Assembly: GCA_905234025.1 (NCBI GenBank)
Contig: CAJOFT010000006.1
Coordinates: 7,747-40,903 of the forward strand
Source of the DNA: Paludibacteraceae bacterium
GTDB lineage: Bacteria; Bacteroidota; Bacteroidia; Bacteroidales; Paludibacteraceae
Direction of reading: 5' to 3'
DNA length: 33,157 bases
The translations under genes and the position numbers were made by a program. Below, one piece after another: positions 760 to 33,157 of this stretch (its first letter is position 1; each line of letters opens with the position of its first letter). The notes beneath the pieces are model-generated. The model worked only from the letters and a program-made list of their open reading frames with translations. It searched no databases and was not told the DNA's origin.

Positions 760-1647
760 ATGCACAGAGCAGGATTTGTAAATATTGTCGGCAATCCGAA
801 TGTGGGTAAGTCCACATTGATGAATGCGTTGGTTGGTGAGCGCCTTTCGATTATCACATCGAAGGCGCAAACCACCCGCCATCGCATCATGGGCATTGTC
901 AACGGTGAGGACTTCCAGATTGTGTATTCCGATACGCCTGGTGTGCTCAAACCGAATTACCGCTTGCAGGAGCAGATGTTGGAATTTTCCCGCTCGGCTC
1001 TTGTAGATGCGGATGTGCTGCTCTATGTCACCGATGTGCAGGATACGCCGGACAAGAACGCCGAGTTCCTTGAGAAGGTCAAGCGGATGGCATCTAATAC
1101 GCGCGTGTTCCTTATAATAAACAAGATAGACCTCACAACGCAGGAAACGCTGGAGCAACTTGTCGAATATTGGCGCAAGCAGTTGCCAGAGGCGGAGATA
1201 TTTCCGATTTCGGCGCAGGAGAGGTTCGGCATTGACCAGCTTTTCGATGCAATTAAAGCGGCATTGCCGGAGTGTCCTCCGTTCTTTGACAAAGACCAGT
1301 TGACTGACAAACCTGCACGCTTCTTCGTGGATGAGATTATCCGTGAAAAGATTCTGCTGAACTACGACAAGGAAATACCTTACAGCGTTGAAGTGGAGGT
1401 GGAATCGTTCCATGAGGAAGAGAAACTGATACGAATATCTGCAATAATCTTTGTGGAGCGTGATTCGCAGAAAGGAATCATCATCGGCAAAGCAGGCACG
1501 GCGCTTAAAAGGGTCGGTTCGCAGGCGCGGCACGATATAGAGGCGTTCTTTGGCAAACAGGTCTTTTTGCAACTATTTGTCAAAGTCGATAAAGACTGGC
1601 GTTCTTCCCAATCGCGTCTCCGTCACTACGGCTACGACCTCAAATAA
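760..1647 (+). CDS. era: GTPase Era
   Basis: G1 GNPNVGKSTLMNAL, TTRHRIMGI, DTPG, NKIDLT, and C-terminal KH-domain text IIIGKAGTALKRVGSQARHDIEAFFGKQVFLQLFVKV. Confidence 0.97.
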   Translation: MHRAGFVNIVGNPNVGKSTLMNALVGERLSIITSKAQTTRHRIMGIVNGEDFQIVYSDTPGVLKPNYRLQEQMLEFSRSALVDADVLLYVTDVQDTPDKNAEFLEKVKRMASNTRVFLIINKIDLTTQETLEQLVEYWRKQLPEAEIFPISAQERFGIDQLFDAIKAALPECPPFFDKDQLTDKPARFFVDEIIREKILLNYDKEIPYSVEVEVESFHEEEKLIRISAIIFVERDSQKGIIIGKAGTALKRVGSQARHDIEAFFGKQVFLQLFVKVDKDWRSSQSRLRHYGYDLK

Positions 1648-1697
1648 ATCGTCCAATCGTAAATAGCCAAATCGTAAATCGTCAAATCGTAAATTAC
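1646..1697. repeat. 15-bp tandem repeat (TAAATCGTCMAATCG, about 3 copies plus partial), starting at the era stop codon
   Basis: TAAATCGTCCAATCG / TAAATAGCCAAATCG / TAAATCGTCAAATCG / TAAATTA. The first TAA (1645-1647) is the era stop codon. Confidence 0.85.
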
Positions 1698-11216: not shown

Positions 11217-12893
11217 ATGCTGACTTCAGAACAAGACAATTTCGTTAAAATGTTTGAGCGCTCCTTCCGCGACAACTGGGATTTGGAGGCAATAACGGAC
11301 TATGGCACGGCGAATACACTGACCTACGGACGTCTGGCGGCGCAGATTGCACGCTTGCATCTGCTTTTCAAGTTGTTCGGCATAAAGAAGGACGACAAGA
11401 TTGCTGTCATGGGACGCAACAACTGCAACTGGGTCACAACCTATCTCGCTACCGTCACCTACGGAGCGGTTATTGTGCCTATTTTGCAGGATTTCAAAGC
11501 CAATGACGCCCAGCATATTATCAACCATTCCGAGTCCAAACTGCTCTTTATCACCGACCTGATTTGGGAGAATATGGATTTGGAGCAGCTGGAAACGCTC
11601 AAAGCCGTTTATTCGCTTGCCAACTTCAAACTCATAGCGCATCGTCATCATAAGGAAATTACATGGGGCGATGTTGAAGAGGCGTTCAGCAAGAAATACA
11701 CCAAAGGTTTTACACCCGAAAGCGTCGAATATGAAAAGCGTCCGAATAGCGCGATTGGTTCAATCAACTATACTTCCGGCACAACAGGTTTCAGCAAGGG
11801 CGTCATTATGCCTTTGAATGGTTTGGCAGGCAATATTCGTCTCGCATTCAACCTCAAACTGGTTTACCCGGGTTGCCGCCACGTGGCGTTCCTGCCTTTG
11901 GCGCATGCGTACGGATGTGCGTTTGACTTCCTTGCTTGTCTCGCTTCCGGCGGACATTCATGGCTGATTGGTCGTACGCCGTCGCCGAAGATTCTCTTGC
12001 AGGCGTTTGCTGAAGTCAAACCGACAACCATTCTTTCTGTGCCGCTCATTCTGGAGAAGATTTACAAGAAGATGATTGTCCCGCAGATACAGAAACCGCC
12101 TATTCGTTGGGTGCTCAAAGTGCCTTATCTGGACGAGGTTGTGCTCAGCAAAATCCGCCAGCAGCTTGTCGAAGCGTTTGGTGGCGAGTTTAAGCAGATT
12201 ATCATCGGCGGAGCACCGCTGAACCCCGAAGTGGAGTCTTTCCTCCATCGTATCAAGTTCCCGATGACCGTTGGCTATGGTATGACTGAATGTGCCCCGC
12301 TCATCAGTTTCACGCCGTACGAAGAGGGTGGCAAACTCTATTCCTGTGGACGCGCACTGGACGGTTTGATGGAGATTAAGATTATCCATCCGAACGAAGA
12401 AGGAATTGGCGAAGTCGTAACACGCGGCGAAAATGTCATGACCGGCTATTTCAAGAACGAACAGGCAACGAAGGACAGTTTCACCAAAGACGGCTGGCTT
12501 CGCACCGGTGACCTCGGAATAATTGACAAGGATGGTTACCTCTTTATTAAAGGACGTTGCAAAACCATGCTGCTTGGTCCTTCAGGGCAGAATATTTATC
12601 CCGAGGAGATTGAAGCGAAACTCAACAACATGCCTTATGTCCTTGAATCGCTTATCCTGCAAACCGAGGACGCACGTTTGGTGGCGCTTGTTTGCCCGGA
12701 TTACAACGAAGTGGATGCCAGTGGTTTGACAAAGGAGCAACTGGAGGAACATATGGAGGAAATCCGCAAGCAGGTCAATGCCGAATTGGCGGCGTATGAG
12801 CAGCTGAATTGCATCAAACTCTTCCCGCATGAGTTTGAGAAAACGCCTAAAAAGTCTATCAAGCGCTTCCTCTACACCAACGTAGAAGTATGA
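11217..12893 (+). CDS. AMP-dependent synthetase / long-chain fatty acid-CoA ligase (copy 2, tandem paralog)
   Basis: Co-linear with the upstream ORF through its whole length; NYTSGTTGFSKGVIMPLNGLAGN, VGYGMTECAPLISF, WLRTGDLGIIDKDGYLFIKGR, KTPKKSIKRFLYT. Confidence 0.93.
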   Translation: MLTSEQDNFVKMFERSFRDNWDLEAITDYGTANTLTYGRLAAQIARLHLLFKLFGIKKDDKIAVMGRNNCNWVTTYLATVTYGAVIVPILQDFKANDAQHIINHSESKLLFITDLIWENMDLEQLETLKAVYSLANFKLIAHRHHKEITWGDVEEAFSKKYTKGFTPESVEYEKRPNSAIGSINYTSGTTGFSKGVIMPLNGLAGNIRLAFNLKLVYPGCRHVAFLPLAHAYGCAFDFLACLASGGHSWLIGRTPSPKILLQAFAEVKPTTILSVPLILEKIYKKMIVPQIQKPPIRWVLKVPYLDEVVLSKIRQQLVEAFGGEFKQIIIGGAPLNPEVESFLHRIKFPMTVGYGMTECAPLISFTPYEEGGKLYSCGRALDGLMEIKIIHPNEEGIGEVVTRGENVMTGYFKNEQATKDSFTKDGWLRTGDLGIIDKDGYLFIKGRCKTMLLGPSGQNIYPEEIEAKLNNMPYVLESLILQTEDARLVALVCPDYNEVDASGLTKEQLEEHMEEIRKQVNAELAAYEQLNCIKLFPHEFEKTPKKSIKRFLYTNVEV

Positions 12894-13624
12894 ACCTCGC
12901 TATTGACCAGGGAAATTCGCGTACCAAAGTCGCTTTGTTTGACGAAAACGGACGCATTGTGAAGAACTTCATCTACAAGTCCTTCACTGCCAGTGACATA
13001 GAGCGTCTCTTTTCGTTGTATCCGATTACGGATAGCATTATTTCCTCTGTGGTCAATATTGAACCTGCGGTGGTGAACTGCCTGAATCGGCTTTCAAAGC
13101 ATTTTGTCCTGTTTGACCACTTTACGCCGGTTCCCATTACCAATTGTTATGCTTCACCTGAGACGCTTGGTCAGGATCGTCTTGCTGCGGCTGTCGGCGC
13201 GGCAGCCATTTGCCCGAATGAAAATCTGCTGATTATTGATGTCGGTTCTGCAATTACCTACGATTTTGTTTCCGAGAAGAACGAATTTCTTGGCGGAAAC
13301 ATCGCACCGGGCATTAAAATGCGTCTCACGATGCTTAACCGCATGACGAAGAAACTTCCGCTGGTGGAAGTGGAAGAAAATGAACTGATTCCTTTGTTTG
13401 GAAAAACAACCCGTGACGCGATTGCGGCAGGCGTTATACGTGGCATTGGCTATGAGGTGAAAGGTTACATTCGGACGCTTGGTGAGCGTTGCAAGCATTA
13501 TGCGCTGTTTCTCACGGGCGGCAACGCACCTTATATATTAAATAACTGCCGTTTCAATTTCCACCACGAAAAGCACCTCGTCCTCATCGGCCTCAACACC
13601 ATCCTCGAATTCAACAAACACTAA
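12890..13624 (+). CDS. coaX: Type III pantothenate kinase
   Basis: MNLAIDQGNSRTKVALFDENG, TLGQDRLAAAVGAA, NLLIIDVGSAITYDFV, FLGGNIAPGIKMRLTML, LFLTGGNAPYI. Confidence 0.95.
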   Translation: MNLAIDQGNSRTKVALFDENGRIVKNFIYKSFTASDIERLFSLYPITDSIISSVVNIEPAVVNCLNRLSKHFVLFDHFTPVPITNCYASPETLGQDRLAAAVGAAAICPNENLLIIDVGSAITYDFVSEKNEFLGGNIAPGIKMRLTMLNRMTKKLPLVEVEENELIPLFGKTTRDAIAAGVIRGIGYEVKGYIRTLGERCKHYALFLTGGNAPYILNNCRFNFHHEKHLVLIGLNTILEFNKH

Positions 13625-13760
13625 ACTCTCCACTCTTAGCTCTTGACTCTTAGCTCTAAGCTCTTGACTTTTAGCTCTAAGCTCTTAGCTCTTGACTCTT
13701 GGCTCTTAGCTCTTGACTCTTGGCTCTTGACTCTTAGCTCTCGACTCTCCACTTTTAGCT
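13625..13760. repeat. Heptanucleotide tandem array (consensus RCTCTTR), 19 units in uninterrupted 7-bp register starting right after the coaX stop codon
   Basis: ACTCTCC ACTCTTA GCTCTTG ACTCTTA GCTCTAA GCTCTTG ACTTTTA GCTCTAA GCTCTTA GCTCTTG ACTCTTG GCTCTTA GCTCTTG ACTCTTG GCTCTTG ACTCTTA GCTCTCG ACTCTCC ACTTTTA GCT. Confidence 0.95.
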
Positions 13761-13791
13761 AAATATATAAAATATATATTTACACCCTCAT

Positions 13792-13835
13792 TTTATTGCA
13801 CCATTATTGTACCATTATTGTACCATTATTGCACC
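13792..13835. repeat. 11-bp tandem repeat x4 (ATTATTGYACC)
   Basis: TTTATTGCACC / ATTATTGTACC / ATTATTGTACC / ATTATTGCACC. Confidence 0.9.
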
Positions 13836-13857
13836 ATAAAGCAGCCTTTAAGGACAC

Positions 13858-13886
13858 GAAAAAAGGACGCCTTGCATCCTTTTTTC
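13858..13886 (-). terminator. Intrinsic terminator downstream of tRNA-Lys
   Basis: Perfect 10-bp inverted repeat GAAAAAAGGA-N9-TCCTTTTTTC with T-rich 3' arm, just beyond the tRNA 3' end. Confidence 0.75.
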
Positions 13887-13893
13887 TTTGCTG

Positions 13894-13966
13894 TGTCCCC
13901 CGAGGGACTCGAACCCTCGACCCACTGATTAAGAGTCAGTTGCTCTACCAACTGAGCTAGGGAGAC
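13894..13966 (-). tRNA. tRNA-Lys (anticodon CTT)
   Basis: Reverse complement GTCTCCCTAGCTCAGTTGGTAGAGCAACTGACTCTTAATCAGTGGGTCGAGGGTTCGAGTCCCTCGGGGGACA: acceptor GTCTCCC/GGGGGAC (one T-G), anticodon stem ACTGA/TCAGT, loop CTCTTAA, T-arm GAGGGTTCGAGTCCCTC. Confidence 0.96.
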
Positions 13967-14356: not shown

Positions 14357-16957
14357 ATGGATAACGAAAACAACCAGATGAATGACGAACTCAATGAGGA
14401 GCTGAATGGAATGGAGCATGACAAAATTATCCCTGTCAAGATTGACGAGGAAATGCGGAAATCCTACATCGACTACTCGATGAGTGTGATTGTGAGCCGT
14501 GCGCTCCCCGATGTGCGCGATGGCTTCAAGCCTGTTCAGCGCCGTGTGCTCTTCGGCATGAACGAATTGGGCGTGAGCAGTGACAAACCGACGAAAAAAA
14601 GTGCACGTATCGTCGGTGATGTTATGGGTAAATATCACCCGCATGGTGATAGTAGTATTTATGGCACGTTGGTTCGCCTCGCGCAGCCCTGGAATATGCG
14701 CTACTGCTTGGTGGACGGACAAGGTAACTTCGGTAATGTGGACGGTGATGGTGCCGCTGCAATGCGTTATACGGAAGCGCGTCTCAGTAAACTGGCTGAG
14801 GAAATGCTTCGCGACATTGAGAAGGATACCGTGGACATGGTGCCGAACTTTGATGACTCCTTGCGTGAGCCTGCTGTGCTGCCTTGCCGCTTCCCGAACC
14901 TCCTGATTAACGGTGGTACAGGTATTGCGGTCGGAATGGCAACGAACATGGCAACGCACAACCTCGGTGAAGTAATTGACGGCTGCGTGGCGTTTGTAAA
15001 CAACCGCAAAGCACGTATTGAAAATCCCGAAGTCGAGGATATTACCGTTGAGGATTTGATGGAATATGTGAAAGCGCCCGATTTCCCGACGGGCGGCACG
15101 ATTTACGGCTACCAGGGCGTGAAGGATGCTTTCGAAACCGGACGCGGACGTGTGGTTATTCGCAGTAACGCCGATATTGAGACCGAAGACAACGGTCGCG
15201 AGAAGATTATTGTTACCGAACTGCCTTATGGCGTGGTCAAAGCTGACCTCGTAAAGAAAATCGGCGACCTTGTTTCCGAGAAGAAGATTGAGGGCATTTC
15301 CGATATTTCCGACCTCAGTACGCGTGACATCCGCATTGTTATTGAGGTGAAACGCGATGCAAACGCGCAGGTAGTCCTTAATAAATTATATAAGTTCACG
15401 GAGCTGCAGTCCTCCTTCAGCGTGAATAACATCGCTTTGGTTCACGGACGTCCGATGTTGCTGAACCTCAAAGACCTTATCGGCAACTTCATTGACCACC
15501 GCATGGATGTGGTGACCCGCCGCACGAAGTACGAACTTCGCAAAGCCGAAGAGCGCGCACATATCTTGGAGGGCTTGATTATTGCCGTTGACAATATTGA
15601 CGAAGTGGTTCGTATTATCCGCGCAAGCCGCACACCGGCAGACGCACAGGCTAACCTCGAAGCACGCTTCAATCTCGATAACCTTCAGTCGAAAGCCATT
15701 GTGGACATGCGTCTCAGCGCGCTCACAGGCTTGCGTATCGAGGAATTAAAGGCCGAATACGAGGAAATAGAGAAGTTGATTGCTCACTTGAACGAACTGC
15801 TTGCCAGCGAAATCATGCGCTATGACGTCATCAATGAAGAATTGGTGGAAATCAAGGACAAATATGCCGACGAACGTCGCACGAAGATTGTCAAGATGGC
15901 GACCGAGTTCAATCCCGAAGACATGTACGCCGATGATGATATGATTATCACAATCTCACATCTGGGTTATATCAAACGTACTCCGTTGACGGAATTCCGT
16001 CAGCAGGGACGCGGCGGAATTGGCAGCAAAGCCGGTTCGGCGCGTGACGAGGACTTTATTGAGTACCTGCACCAGGCTTCGATGCACTCGACAATGATGT
16101 TCTTCACAGAATGCGGACGTCTCTATTGGCTCAAAGTCTATGATATCCCGGAAGGCAACAAGCAGTCCAAAGGTCGTGCCATCCAAAACATGATTAACCT
16201 CGAAAAAGGCGACAAAGTGCGTGCTTTCATCAACGTCAAAGGACTGAATGATGCCGAGTTTGTCAATAACCATTATCTCATCTTCGCAACCAAGAAAGGT
16301 TTGATGAAGAAGACCACGTTGGAGGCATATAGCCGTCCGCGTGCAAATGGTATCAATGCGGTTGGTTTGCGCGAAGGTGACGAACTGATTGGCGTTACAT
16401 TGACCGACGGACAGAGCGAAATGCTCATCGCTTCATACAACGGAAAAGTCGTTCGCTTCAACGAAGCGGGTGTACGTCCGATGGGACGTAATGCCAGCGG
16501 CGTAAAGGCAATTACGTTGGAAAATGACGGACAAGACCGCGTGATTGGCATGATTTGTGTAGAGCCTAATACAGACAAGACTGTTTTGGTAATCTCTGAC
16601 AAGGGATTTGGCAAACGCACACGCTTGGACGATGAGGACGGACAACCCGTTTACCGCGTTACTAACCGCGGTGGTAAGGGTGTCAAGACGATGAACCTCA
16701 CCGACAAGACAGGACAACTTGTAGGCTTGCATGCTGTCAGCGACGACGAAGATTTGATGCTTATCACGAAGTCGGGAACGGCAATTCGTATGGCAATGGA
16801 TACAATCCGTGTTATGGGACGTGCAACGCAAGGTGTCAAACTCATCGAACTCCAGAAACGCAACGATACGCTGATGTTCGGCTGCGTCGTTCCGAAAGAG
16901 GAGGCTGATGAAAACTCGGAAAACGTGGAAAATCCGGAAACGCCCGAAAATGAATAA
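14357..16957 (+). CDS. gyrA: DNA gyrase subunit A
   Basis: [36 protein letters not shown]; catalytic-Tyr context [12 protein letters not shown]; GyrA-box-like [10 protein letters not shown] in the C-terminal domain; acidic tail [15 protein letters not shown]. Confidence 0.97.
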
Positions 16958-16983
16958 ATGAACAAATGAGAAAATAAGAAAAT
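16944..16983. repeat. Octamer tandem array (GARNAAAT) spanning the gyrA stop codon up to the TPR-gene start codon
   Basis: CCGAAAAT GAATAAAT GAACAAAT GAGAAAAT AAGAAAAT; the TAA of unit 2 is the gyrA stop codon and the array runs into the ATG at 16982. Confidence 0.8.
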
Positions 16984-18223
16984 GAAAAAGACATTATTTC
17001 TCGCAGCATTGGTGCTGATAAGCGCTGGCTGCATGGCACAAAAAGCAAGTGTAAACAAAGCAAGAAGCTTGATTCTGCAAGAAGAACCTGATTTTGATCA
17101 GGCGCGTCAACTTATCGGTGCGGCGATGCAGAACGAAGAAACAAAAGACCAGGCGAACACGTGGTACGTGGCTGGTTTGGTTGGATATCAAATCAGAGAA
17201 CAGGCTGAGCGTGACCGCATGATCGGTAAAGTCCCCGATCAAGACCAGATTGGACAGGCTATCATGGAGAGTTACGACTACTGGATGAAGGCGGACGAAA
17301 TCGCCATGACGCCGACGCTGGACAAGAAAGGTCGTGAAGTTGTGGACACCAAGACCCGCACCAACATTGCCAAGAAGCTCTTCGAACTTTACGACAAGCA
17401 GGACTTCGTAAAGTATGGTATTCACCTCAACGAACAACGTGATTTCCGCGGTGCGTACAACGTGTTCATGCGTCACCTTACAATGCCTGACCTGCCGATG
17501 ATGCAGGATGAGTCTTTCCAGGCTAAGATGCAGAAGGACACCATCTATGCACAGTATGAGTATTATGCAGCTCTCTTTGCTATTCAGGCACAGATGCACG
17601 ATGAGGCGATTGTTATTCTTGAGAAGATGAAAAACGGCGCATACGAACCGGTGGCTGTTAACCAGTTCCTTTATCAGGAATATGTGGAGAAAAAAGACAC
17701 GGCTAACTTCGTGCGCGTGCTTCAGGATGCGATGGTGCAGTTCCCGAAGGAACCCTGGTTCTTGCAGAACCTGATTAACTACTACATCTTCTCCGGACAG
17801 GAGCAGGCTGCTATTGATTATCTGGCACAAGCTATTGCCCGTGACCCGAACGTAGCGCAATATCATCTGATTAAAGGCAACCTGAACGCAAACCAGGGGC
17901 ACAATGAAGAAGCGTTGGCGGATTATGACAAGACGCTCGAACTTGACCCGAATTTGGCGGACGCTATTGCCGGTAAAGGACGTGTTTACTACAATCAGGC
18001 GGTTAAAATGAATGAGGACGCGGCATATATTCAGGACCAGAAAGCCTATAAAGCTGCACTGGCGGATATGAATGAAATGTTCAAGAAATCGCTCCCGTTC
18101 TTTGAGAAAGCTCATGAGATGGAGCCTGAGAACCGTGATTTCATGATTACGTTGAAGACCCTCTACTATCGTTTCCACATGGATGACAAGTACGAGGCGA
18201 TTCAGGAGAAACTGAATAACTGA
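16982..18223 (+). CDS. Secreted/periplasmic TPR-repeat protein
   Basis: Signal peptide MKKTLFLAALVLISAGCMAQ; TPR units such as AQYHLIKGNLNANQGHNEEALADYDKTLELDPNLADAIAGKGRVYYNQA. Confidence 0.85.
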   Translation: MKKTLFLAALVLISAGCMAQKASVNKARSLILQEEPDFDQARQLIGAAMQNEETKDQANTWYVAGLVGYQIREQAERDRMIGKVPDQDQIGQAIMESYDYWMKADEIAMTPTLDKKGREVVDTKTRTNIAKKLFELYDKQDFVKYGIHLNEQRDFRGAYNVFMRHLTMPDLPMMQDESFQAKMQKDTIYAQYEYYAALFAIQAQMHDEAIVILEKMKNGAYEPVAVNQFLYQEYVEKKDTANFVRVLQDAMVQFPKEPWFLQNLINYYIFSGQEQAAIDYLAQAIARDPNVAQYHLIKGNLNANQGHNEEALADYDKTLELDPNLADAIAGKGRVYYNQAVKMNEDAAYIQDQKAYKAALADMNEMFKKSLPFFEKAHEMEPENRDFMITLKTLYYRFHMDDKYEAIQEKLNN

Positions 18224-24157: not shown

Positions 24158-24201
24158 CGTATGTGATACGTATGTGATTCGTATGTGATACGTATGTGAT
24201 T
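24158..24201. repeat. 11-bp tandem repeat x4 (CGTATGTGATW) in the predicted 5' UTR of the 24261 gene
   Basis: CGTATGTGATA / CGTATGTGATT / CGTATGTGATA / CGTATGTGATT; equivalently an exact 22-bp unit repeated twice. Confidence 0.95.
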
Positions 24202-27873: not shown

Positions 27874-28629
27874 ATGGACAGCTACATAAATATTAAAGTG
27901 CGTGTATGGCGCCAAGCAGGCCCCAAAGCACAAGGTCATTTCGAGACCTACGAACTCAATCATATCTTCCAGGGAGCATCGTTCCTTGAGATGATTGATA
28001 TACTCAATGAACAACTCATCGCAGAACACAAAGATCCTATTGCATTCGACCACGATTGTCGTGAGGGTATTTGCGGTATGTGCTCGATGTACGTAAACGG
28101 TCATCCGCACGGACCAGACAGCGCCATTACTACCTGCCAGCTCCACATGCGTAAGTTCCACGACGGCGAGACCATCACCGTGGAGCCGTGGCGTAGCCGT
28201 GCATTCCCTGTAATCAAGGACCTCATGGTTGACCGTCAGGCATATGACAAGATTATGCAGGCAGGCGGCTTTGTTTCTGTGAACACAGGTGGTGTGCCCG
28301 ACGCAAATGCTATTCCTATTCCGAAGCCGGTGGCTGACGAAGCAATGGACGCAGCGTCTTGTATCGGTTGCGGTGCTTGCGCGGCAGCTTGTAAGAACGG
28401 TAGTGCTATGCTCTTCGTGGCAGCGAAGGTTAGCCAGCTTGCTCTTCTTCCGCAAGGAAAGGTCGAAGCTGCACAGCGCGCAAAGAACATGCTCGCCAAG
28501 ATGGACGAACTTGGTTTCGGTAACTGCACGAACACCGGTGCTTGCGCCGCGGAGTGCCCGAAACAGGTCAGCCTGGCAAATATTGCCCGCCTGAACCGCG
28601 AGTTCATCTGCGCGAAGTTTAAAGATTAG
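27874..28629 (+). CDS. frdB: Fumarate reductase/succinate dehydrogenase iron-sulfur subunit
   Basis: 2Fe-2S motif [50 protein letters not shown]. Confidence 0.95.
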
Positions 28630-28673
28630 TAGTCAGTATTCAGCTGTCAGTATTCAGTTGGCAGCTGTCAGAA
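28625..28673. repeat. Degenerate heptamer array (about 7 units, KTCAGTW-like) spanning the frdB stop codon
   Basis: ATTAGTA GTCAGTA TTCAGCT GTCAGTA TTCAGTT GGCAGCT GTCAGAA; TAG at 28627-28629 is the frdB stop codon. Confidence 0.75.
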
Positions 28674-31052: not shown

Positions 31053-33059
31053 ATGAAAAAGTTATTCCTTCTTTTATGTGCCACGTGCACGATGTCAGCT
31101 TTTGCCGCTGATTTGATTACCATTGCAGAGTTTGTCTCAAACGCCGATGGCGCAACCACTTATCGTCTGACAGGTGAAGTGCAAAACATCAAAAATACTA
31201 CGTTCGGCAACTTCTACCTGAAGGACGAAACGGGTTCCATCTATATATACGGATTGCTTGACGCAAACGGCAAAACCAAGCAGTTCGCTTACATGGACAT
31301 CGCGGAAGGCGACATACTGACTTTGGAGGGTGTCTATTCTGTTTATGGCAGTAGCCCGCAAATTAAGGACGCGCAGTATATCTCACATACGAAAAATTCC
31401 TGGGTACCTGTTCCGAAAACCATTGCCGAGGTAATCGAACTCAATGACGGCAAGCGCTATATTCTTACAGGTGCCGTCACGGAAATTACGGATGTGACAT
31501 ACGGCAATTTCTATATGCAGGATGCTTCGGGCGAGACCCAAGTGCTGGTTTATGGCATGAACAAGGACGAGAACGATGTGGGGATAGTATTTGCCAACTT
31601 GGCGCTTGAGGTGGGCGATTCGGTCACGTTGTCAGGCGTGTATGAATTATATGGCGGAACAACGAAGGAAATCACCAGCCCAAAATACATCAGCCATAAA
31701 CATATGGGCGAATCGGTTGACCCGCAGAGAGAGGTGGTGGACTTCGCAAAGGACTTTGCTGACGGTTGGGACAATTGGATCGGAAAGGAACTCCATTTTT
31801 CCAACCCGTTCTATGTCAGCAGCACCTATACAAACGAAATGGCGTATATACGCTTGCGCGCACCGGAAGAGTACGGTGAAGAAGGCACAGAGGAATATAC
31901 TAAAGCAGAGGAACACAATATATGGGCGAACTGTGTTTTGTCTGGCTTGTCTTTCAAGGAGGGTGCACGTCCGGGAACCGTGGTGAGCGGATTGGATGCC
32001 AAAGTCACTTCGGCGAATTGCTTGGAGGCATTGAATATTCCTACCATTGAGTATAACGACCTGCCTACGGTACGTCCCGATTTGGGCAAAGCCGATTTGG
32101 TGGTTTGCGCCGCAAACATCGAGAACTATTTTGCAACGCTGGACATCGGCTACAGCGGTATTGCCAAAGACGAGGAGCAGTTGGAGGTGCAAACGACAAA
32201 GATTTCTACGGCACTCTTCCACATGGATGCGGATATATATGCACTCTGCGAGGTGGAAGAAGGACCTGTTGCGGCTACGATGTTGGTTAATGCGCTGAAC
32301 ACATTGGCTGGCGAAGACAGATACGATTGGGTGGATGAGGGTTATCCGACGTACAAATCCATTATGGTGTGCTATATCTACCGCAAGGACAAAGTCAAAC
32401 CCTATGGCAAGTACATGACGCCGTATTCTTACAACACGGCGATGAAATACCGCGAGGCGATTCAGTGCTTCGAGTCCTTGAAGAACCATGAGCGTTTCAA
32501 TCTGTCGCTGAACCACTTTTTTGCCAAACTCAGCAAAACGGATGAGGACAGACAGGAGAATATGCAGAAACTCATTGACCAACTGCCTGCCGCAGAGAAG
32601 CTTGATCCCGATGTGTTGGTGGTCGGTGACTTGAACGGCTATACCAATGAGGAATCGAACCTCATGCTTACGCGCGACAAGAAATATGTGGACCTGCTTA
32701 TGAAGTATGACCCGCAGGGATATAGTTACGTCTATGGCGGAAAGGTCGGCTATTTGGATCATGCGTTTGCCAATTCAACTATGGCGAAGCAGGTGACGAA
32801 AGCGCTGCCTTATCACCTCAATGCGGACACGGATTATGGTTATGAGTTCAAATATGGAAACCAATCTATGTACCGCTACTCCGACCATGACCCGCTTCTT
32901 ATTGGTCTGAAACTGGGGCAAAGTGCTCCGGGTCCGGAAGAAGGATTGGATGACGTGCAGGCTGTAACGCCGCAAGTTGTCAAGGTGATGATTGACGGAC
33001 ACCTATATATTATTAATAATGGCATCCGTTACACTGTTACCGGTCAGAGGGTGGAGTAA
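31053..33059 (+). CDS. Secreted OB-fold/EEP-domain protein, tandem paralog with two OB-like repeats
   Basis: Signal peptide MKKLFLLLCATCTMSAFAA; CAANIENY, DADIYALCEVE, LNHFFAK, VGDLNGY, YSDHDPLLIGL; tail VKVMIDGHLYIINNGIRYTVTGQRVE. Confidence 0.85.
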   Translation: MKKLFLLLCATCTMSAFAADLITIAEFVSNADGATTYRLTGEVQNIKNTTFGNFYLKDETGSIYIYGLLDANGKTKQFAYMDIAEGDILTLEGVYSVYGSSPQIKDAQYISHTKNSWVPVPKTIAEVIELNDGKRYILTGAVTEITDVTYGNFYMQDASGETQVLVYGMNKDENDVGIVFANLALEVGDSVTLSGVYELYGGTTKEITSPKYISHKHMGESVDPQREVVDFAKDFADGWDNWIGKELHFSNPFYVSSTYTNEMAYIRLRAPEEYGEEGTEEYTKAEEHNIWANCVLSGLSFKEGARPGTVVSGLDAKVTSANCLEALNIPTIEYNDLPTVRPDLGKADLVVCAANIENYFATLDIGYSGIAKDEEQLEVQTTKISTALFHMDADIYALCEVEEGPVAATMLVNALNTLAGEDRYDWVDEGYPTYKSIMVCYIYRKDKVKPYGKYMTPYSYNTAMKYREAIQCFESLKNHERFNLSLNHFFAKLSKTDEDRQENMQKLIDQLPAAEKLDPDVLVVGDLNGYTNEESNLMLTRDKKYVDLLMKYDPQGYSYVYGGKVGYLDHAFANSTMAKQVTKALPYHLNADTDYGYEFKYGNQSMYRYSDHDPLLIGLKLGQSAPGPEEGLDDVQAVTPQVVKVMIDGHLYIINNGIRYTVTGQRVE

Positions 33060-33157
33060 ATGAAAAAATGCGAAAATGAGTAAATGAGAAAATGAGTAAA
33101 TGAGAAAATGTGTAAATGAGAAAATGTGTAAATGAGAAAATGTGTAAATGAGAAAAT
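33054..33157. repeat. Octamer/16-bp tandem array (GAGTAAAT GAGAAAAT), 13 octamers in register from the stop codon to the window edge
   Basis: 33054-33157 divides exactly into 13 octamers. The last five 16-bp units (33078-33157) differ only by GAG/GTG. The array runs off the window. Confidence 0.95.

Follow-up and report, generated by a model that had tools for sequence, protein, structure and literature searches.

The type III pantothenate kinase gene coaX (12890..13624, + strand; an open reading frame matching Pfam PF03309, E=1.7e-41) lies in the window, by which is meant the whole 33,157-nt stretch of Paludibacteraceae DNA that was analysed. Directly 3' of its TAA stop (13622-13624, + strand) stands a 133-bp array of 19 indel-free heptamers with the consensus RCTCTTR (13625..13757, + strand), as an earlier note on this DNA had described; the GC directly past the array could be the start of a 20th unit. 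It is followed by a separate dispersed element of about 90 bp (13760..13850, + strand), which was aligned with six other copies from the same genome, and by a predicted hairpin terminator, AAAAAAGGACGCCTTGCATCCTTTTTTC (13859..13886, no strand assigned). The terminator is also present in the array-free ortholog L030 and is possibly bidirectional, since an A run and a T run flank its two sides. A tRNA gene is encoded on the - strand at 13894..13966 (Rfam RF00005, E=4.8e-15) and was assigned to lysine from the anticodon CTT read in its loop. The anticodon arm of this tRNA-Lys(CUU) holds the array unit ACTCTTA on the opposite strand (13930-13936), probably by chance (roughly estimated at 0.15 for the flanks). 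The gyrA gene (14357..16957, + strand; Pfam PF00521) lies beyond.

Further arrays were found in the window, all on the + strand. An octamer array of AAATGNNN spans the gyrA stop and the next start (16948..16989), and a second heptamer array, of AGTATTC/AGCTGTC type, stands downstream of a stop codon and ahead of a hairpin terminator (28628..28671); the latter is absent from genomes G078 and G079. Octamers of AAATGAGA/AAATGAGT lie directly 3' of a stop codon at 33058..33157, a 15-bp array of AAATCGT plus AAATCGCC (7+8) fills a gene gap at 1645..1694, and an 11-mer array of CGTATGTGATW (24158..24200) belongs to a dispersed family also present in the sister genome G077.

Units 1-10 of the coaX array read ACTCTCC ACTCTTA GCTCTTG ACTCTTA GCTCTAA GCTCTTG ACTTTTA GCTCTAA GCTCTTA GCTCTTG, and units 11-19 read ACTCTTG GCTCTTA GCTCTTG ACTCTTG GCTCTTG ACTCTTA GCTCTCG ACTCTCC ACTTTTA; the previously reported identity of units 1 and 18 (ACTCTCC) is evident from this listing. 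By column, the numbers of units matching RCTCTTR were 19, 19, 19, 17, 19, 14 and 17. A and G were near-equal in columns 1 and 7, and CTCTT was almost fixed. TRF detected the array at periods 7 and 21, and its period-21 self-match score was 62.5, compared with 12 for the best of 2000 same-letter shuffles. The earlier view of an array in exact register, and not of ordinary intergenic DNA, is right. Identity at a lag of three units was above that of shuffles (p=0.018, one of six lags tried). The in-phase coaX stop, which the earlier note had pointed out, is not supported as a meaningful feature and is most likely a matter of chance, because the coding end aligns with that of array-free relatives (AACAAGCATTAA in L030).

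Several known kinds of element were rejected. CRISPR arrays have repeats of about 25-40 bp with unique spacers, as against 7-bp units without spacers here. A plasmid or phage origin was discarded because similar DNA was not found. The array is neither an ORF nor a known RNA family, the Rfam gathering score being reached by the tRNA only, and a structured RNA was rejected on the lack of an Rfam match in the array and on a fold z-score of -1.64 over 300 nt including the terminator. Counted from the units, the + strand holds 38/133 purines, so that the opposite strand is about 71% purine, in agreement with the purine richness noted before. A pyrimidine-rich, largely unstructured sense strand between stop and terminator, with a UC step every 7 nt, could serve in the RNA for Rho loading or protein binding, or could stabilise the mRNA 3' end, and several other RCTCTTR-family copies run in the same sense as their upstream gene. 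Such a role is nevertheless unlikely: the fold score over the whole 300 nt is unremarkable, the coaX array is absent from relatives, and other families occupy equivalent places without being pyrimidine-rich or unstructured. Moreover, the family (CTCTTRR) occurs in both orientations relative to genes, on which ground a fixed RNA-sense orientation was rejected.

The earlier note had named an identical array in all relatives as the outcome that would weigh against it; the array proved instead to be absent from them. Among 142 coaX matches in 178 genomes of the genus, only the window's own match extends past the stop into the array (0/141 others). In L030 (genome G078), coaX is 92% identical and the gene order coaX-tRNA-Lys-gyrA is kept, with no array and 17-21 bp (about 20) in place of about 235 bp in the window. 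Other repeats occupy the region elsewhere: an array of the heptamer GAAAGTT, unrelated to RCTCTTR, lies directly past the coaX stop in L226, 11-mer arrays of TGAGCATACAT lie in the coaX 3' region of L206 and L207, and CTTTCAC heptamers fall within the signal-peptide region of the gene next to coaX in L212 and L216. The close relatives found by name are metagenome-assembled Paludibacteraceae genomes whose sources are deer and further ruminants. For the coaX array, the best explanation is a tandem repeat particular to this lineage, lying in the 3' untranslated DNA from stop codon to terminator.

The genome of the window (G000) is a draft, metagenome-assembled genome in 171 contigs, 79% complete. 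Each period from 5 to 30 was scored over 1.26 Mb of it. Intergenic arrays numbered 28 at period 7, 18 at period 8, 38 at period 11, 7 at period 15, 5 at period 10, 2 at period 12 and 1 at period 13, with none at periods 6 and 9; further arrays occurred at longer periods, partly multiples. A Markov null of five times the scanned G000 length gave 0 arrays. In 0.4 Mb of G077 the counts were 8, 20 and 20 at periods 7, 8 and 11, with 1 at period 6 and 0 at periods 9 and 10, and in two other families of the order no arrays were found in 100 kb scanned for each. Short-read assemblies can miscount repeat units, and the draft state of G000 invites the suspicion of an assembly artefact. We consider this extremely improbable, as the units are non-identical and in a definite order, the arrays are internal to contigs and normally flanked, and arrays of this class recur in many other assembled genomes.

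Repeat families in G000 include CTCTTRR, GTGTANR, TAAACGY, ACTGAYA, AAATGNNN and AACACATC, and the main 15-mer is the 7-mer AAATCGT joined to the 8-mer AAATCGCC. One family may recur widely (about 20 stretches for GTGTANR and about 24 for AAATGNNN). Octamers of AAATGNNN gave 100 matches in G000 and were found in 12 of a further 148 genomes of the order, where the spacer letters mostly were particular to the genome. The reversed control RTTCTCR, rather than RCTCTTR, was abundant in several of the other species of the genus, which indicates that array families differ between species. The heptamers and octamers, previously held to be unrelated, do differ in sequence; they nonetheless belong to the same genome-wide class and obey the same rules. 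In a separate case, the Bacteroidales genome G113, an identical 29-mer, AAATGCGAAAATGATAAAATGCTTAAATG, occurs at about ten places, a recurrence that suggests a mobile element carrying an octamer array.

Columns were analysed in 34 arrays of at least 7 units, with the core not chosen beforehand. In 7-mers, two columns had mean major-base frequencies of 0.54 and 0.71 and the others 0.90-1.00; in 8-mers, the two most variable columns stood at 0.56 and 0.67 and most others were fixed. Units of both lengths thus have about five fixed columns and two or three variable ones, mostly adjacent, and the two most variable were adjacent in 21/34 arrays (about 11 expected). Unit order was shared between different loci no more than in shuffled order, and identity at a lag of two units within arrays exceeded that of shuffles (z=4.0). 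The unshared order argues against recent copying of multi-unit blocks between loci, and the arrays were rejected as recent copies of each other on this ground. Order and lag data fit unit-by-unit writing with a loose spacer, followed by block slippage.

These results bear on the view that families spread between loci, whether by ectopic template switching, by gene conversion or by dedicated machinery such as a reverse transcriptase or primase-polymerase with a 7-11 nt template, each genome thereby acquiring its own repertoire. The same families do stand at many loci within a genome and differ between genomes, one family is replaced by another at an identical site (see below), and the pairing of a conserved core with a free spacer is reminiscent of one short template being used repeatedly. 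Weighed against the unshared unit order, spreading seems doubtful. No RVT_1 domain was found in the array-bearing genomes G000, G001, G003, G014 and G022, and an RVT_1 reverse transcriptase was rejected as the consistent writer, with the proviso that G000 is incomplete and the RVT_1 model does not cover all reverse transcriptases.

Placement relative to genes was examined in G000, using simple codon-usage gene calls that make single gene coordinates approximate. Of the 7/8/15-type arrays between co-directional genes, 17 take up the whole gap; the remaining 23 are in large gaps, and 11 of these lie 15 bp or less from the upstream stop, compared with 4.4 expected. Arrays of 11-mers showed no such excess (2/19; 1.9 expected) and were commoner in divergent gaps. 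Arrays of the 7-/8-bp class crowd stop codons and fill stop-to-start gaps. Octamers of the AAATGNNN family (e.g. 16948-16989 and 33058-33157) are nearly always in gene sense, and some selection may act on them for that reason. All-frame stop barriers were rejected as a general explanation, as some sense-strand stop bias is seen in octamers and 15-mers, is weak in heptamers and is absent in TACACCR. Within AAATGANN, every ATG starts a frame of three codons, and the TGA ending that frame overlaps the following ATG (ATGA); the series may be a chain of stop-restart sites between genes.

The period of the 11-mers and their position suggest that they could be protein-binding iterons, distinct from the heptamer class. 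About a dozen 11-mer families, with 3-6 copies each, were noted in G000, often upstream of genes (24158-24200, L051, L109, L173). The element of about 90 bp next to the coaX array consists of an AT-rich palindrome (13760-13782), CACCCTCA, four 11-mers TTATTGYACCA (13793-13837) and TAAAGCAGCCTTTA. Its copies combine the palindrome with four to six of these 11-mers and TAAAGCACCCTTTA, and the palindrome arms covary between copies (C9, C2). The pattern had 24 matches at 8 places in G000, with several further copies in G077 and none in 60 other genomes of the genus.

Orthologous sites were compared between G000 and sister genomes about 85% identical to it, part of G000 and G077 being covered. The gyrA octamers have the same length and equal unit number in G000 and G077 (one short array compared exactly) and are absent from G078 and G079. 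At L114 13267 the family is that of G077 and the array is three octamers longer. One and the same pair of stop and start codons encloses TAAACGY heptamers at L056 3201 and ATTTGAAG octamers in G077. Where genes of the window overlap by 28 bp (19751-20335/20308), no array is present, and an octamer array is found at the G077 site. Over about 30 distinct G000-G077 sites, approximate figures that include borderline cases were about ten with the same family, seven to eight with another family and thirteen empty. Arrays co-occurred at orthologous gaps beyond expectation (odds ratio 6.9, p=0.013, 145 gaps), which indicates that some gaps are simply permissive. The difference of whole units at L114 13267 would fit a reading of the coaX array as a contingency locus, its length varying from cell to cell and switching coaX or tRNA expression. 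This is very unlikely, given the equal gyrA unit number in two species, the location of arrays downstream of housekeeping genes and also within coding sequence for essential enzymes, and the lack of any promoter or reading frame seen to depend on the coaX array.

In-frame arrays were found in G000 within genes for aminopeptidase P, arginyl-tRNA synthetase (ArgRS), Mfd and an LD-carboxypeptidase-like protein, named from sequence rather than by family search. A single site in a loop of aminopeptidase P holds AAATCGT/AAATCGCC in G000, GAAAGYG in G305, ACAATGW in G046 and G294, CAAGAGC in G227 and G015, GAATTAC in G311 and GGTTACG in G327, or in further species no array; CAAGAGC corresponds to the coaX family in reverse complement. 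Most species keep in ArgRS the 12-residue stretch VNTLQGITEAEA (36 nt, non-repeat); a heptamer-coded peptide takes its place in G000 (54 nt) and in G046/G294 (33 nt). The inserts of G000 and G294/G046 (L253, L254, L249) were also seen to have their ends in common, and the sisters of G000 are without the insert; exchange of gene segments between lineages may account for the common ends. The arrays in ArgRS, Mfd and aminopeptidase P mean that the repeat process also creates protein sequence in essential enzymes.

With a probability of roughly 0.6, the arrays are the mostly neutral product of recurrent local repeat generation, through serial slippage or reuse of a template, and selection has confined them to permissive sites. 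In the course of replication or repair, the nascent strand would slip back one unit and re-pair through the core of about 5 nt, so that the same 7-8 nt would be recopied repeatedly; the 2-3 nt beside the core would be loosely copied or re-paired and stay variable. Block slippage of 14-21 bp would later alter array length. MutS mismatch repair does not deal with loops as large as 7 nt and above, and the slipped intermediates would be expected to escape it. The arrays left by selection would lie chiefly in stop-to-start and stop-to-terminator intervals, or in frame where a protein has a flexible loop. For the array at coaX, no particular function is proposed.

Slippage on a short core explains the tandem structure, the fixed core, the loose spacer and the changes in length. 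It does not explain the preference for periods 7, 8 and 11 over 6, 9 and 12, and simple slippage seeded locally leaves unaccounted for the recurrence of one family across the genome (GTGTANR, AAATGNNN). Outright replacement of the conserved 36 nt of ArgRS is beyond slippage alone and needs a repair-like event. We offer tentatively, as a minority possibility, a repeat-writing activity specific to the genus, which would reuse one short template in series, realigning on a core of about 5 nt beside a loose spacer of 2-3 nt. It would continually write genome-specific 7-, 8- and 11-bp arrays, overwrite older ones at the same sites and put repeat-encoded peptides in the place of conserved loops in essential enzymes. 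Any mechanism is strongly constrained by the discrete unit lengths, by the core-plus-spacer columns and by the missing multiples of three. Heptamer repeats of bacteria have been on record for decades and still lack an agreed origin, and this genus of gut bacteria offers close genomes in which array birth, loss and exchange occur at identifiable sites.

Rickettsia palindromic elements, palindromic units of about 100-150 bp, are inserted in frame in essential protein genes. The arrays of this genus likewise sit in frame in such genes, and differ in being tandem units of 7 bp. The coaX array is of the same kind as the known intergenic heptamer repeats (STRR or long simple sequence repeats): its 7-bp units are head-to-tail, its unit is dispersed genome-wide (exact RCTCTTR triple-unit matches at four places in G000, related stretches at several more), and arrays of its class lie mostly in non-coding DNA, between aligned ORFs and near stop codons. 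Its unit, RCTCTTR, is neither GGGNATC nor TAACTGA. What appears new is that one genome carries several families and several periods, that the columns divide into core and spacer, that one family can give way to another at a given site, and that arrays stand in frame within essential enzymes. This judgement is provisional and comes from a search mainly of openly accessible literature.

The heptamers of Xanthomonas, Nostoc and Beggiatoaceae are relatives of these arrays. According to Rehm et al. (2015, PMC4692102), GGGNATC heptamers of Xanthomonas and Nostoc are dispersed and variable in length, lie mostly between aligned ORFs, many less than 50 bp from a stop, and are rare between divergent ORFs; they form a single G-rich, quadruplex-forming family per genome, and 83% are in the same place in a sister species. 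The arrays described here share with them the 7-bp unit, genome-wide dispersal and much the same placement, but comprise many families that are not G-rich, have periods of 7, 8 and 11 per genome and are frequently lost or replaced at the same site. In the account of MacGregor (2015, PMC4679880), TAACTGA direct repeats form scattered intergenic arrays, found among others in Paludibacter propionicigenes, a relative of the present family; they have a single unit and lie for the most part just 5' of start codons. A proposal cited there relates 7 nt to the segment contacting polymerase. These too are intergenic heptamer arrays, and ACTGAYA-type heptamers also occur in G000, whereas the coaX array lies past a stop codon and has another unit. 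Both sources cite the cyanobacterial STRR heptanucleotides and, from Mrazek et al. (2007), the 'long simple sequence repeats'; in many bacteria no other long simple repeat is as common as the heptamer, and polymerase slippage was put forward as a cause. To these repeats, as represented there, the present genus adds octamers and 11-mers that follow the same rules, core-plus-spacer columns and turnover at the same site.
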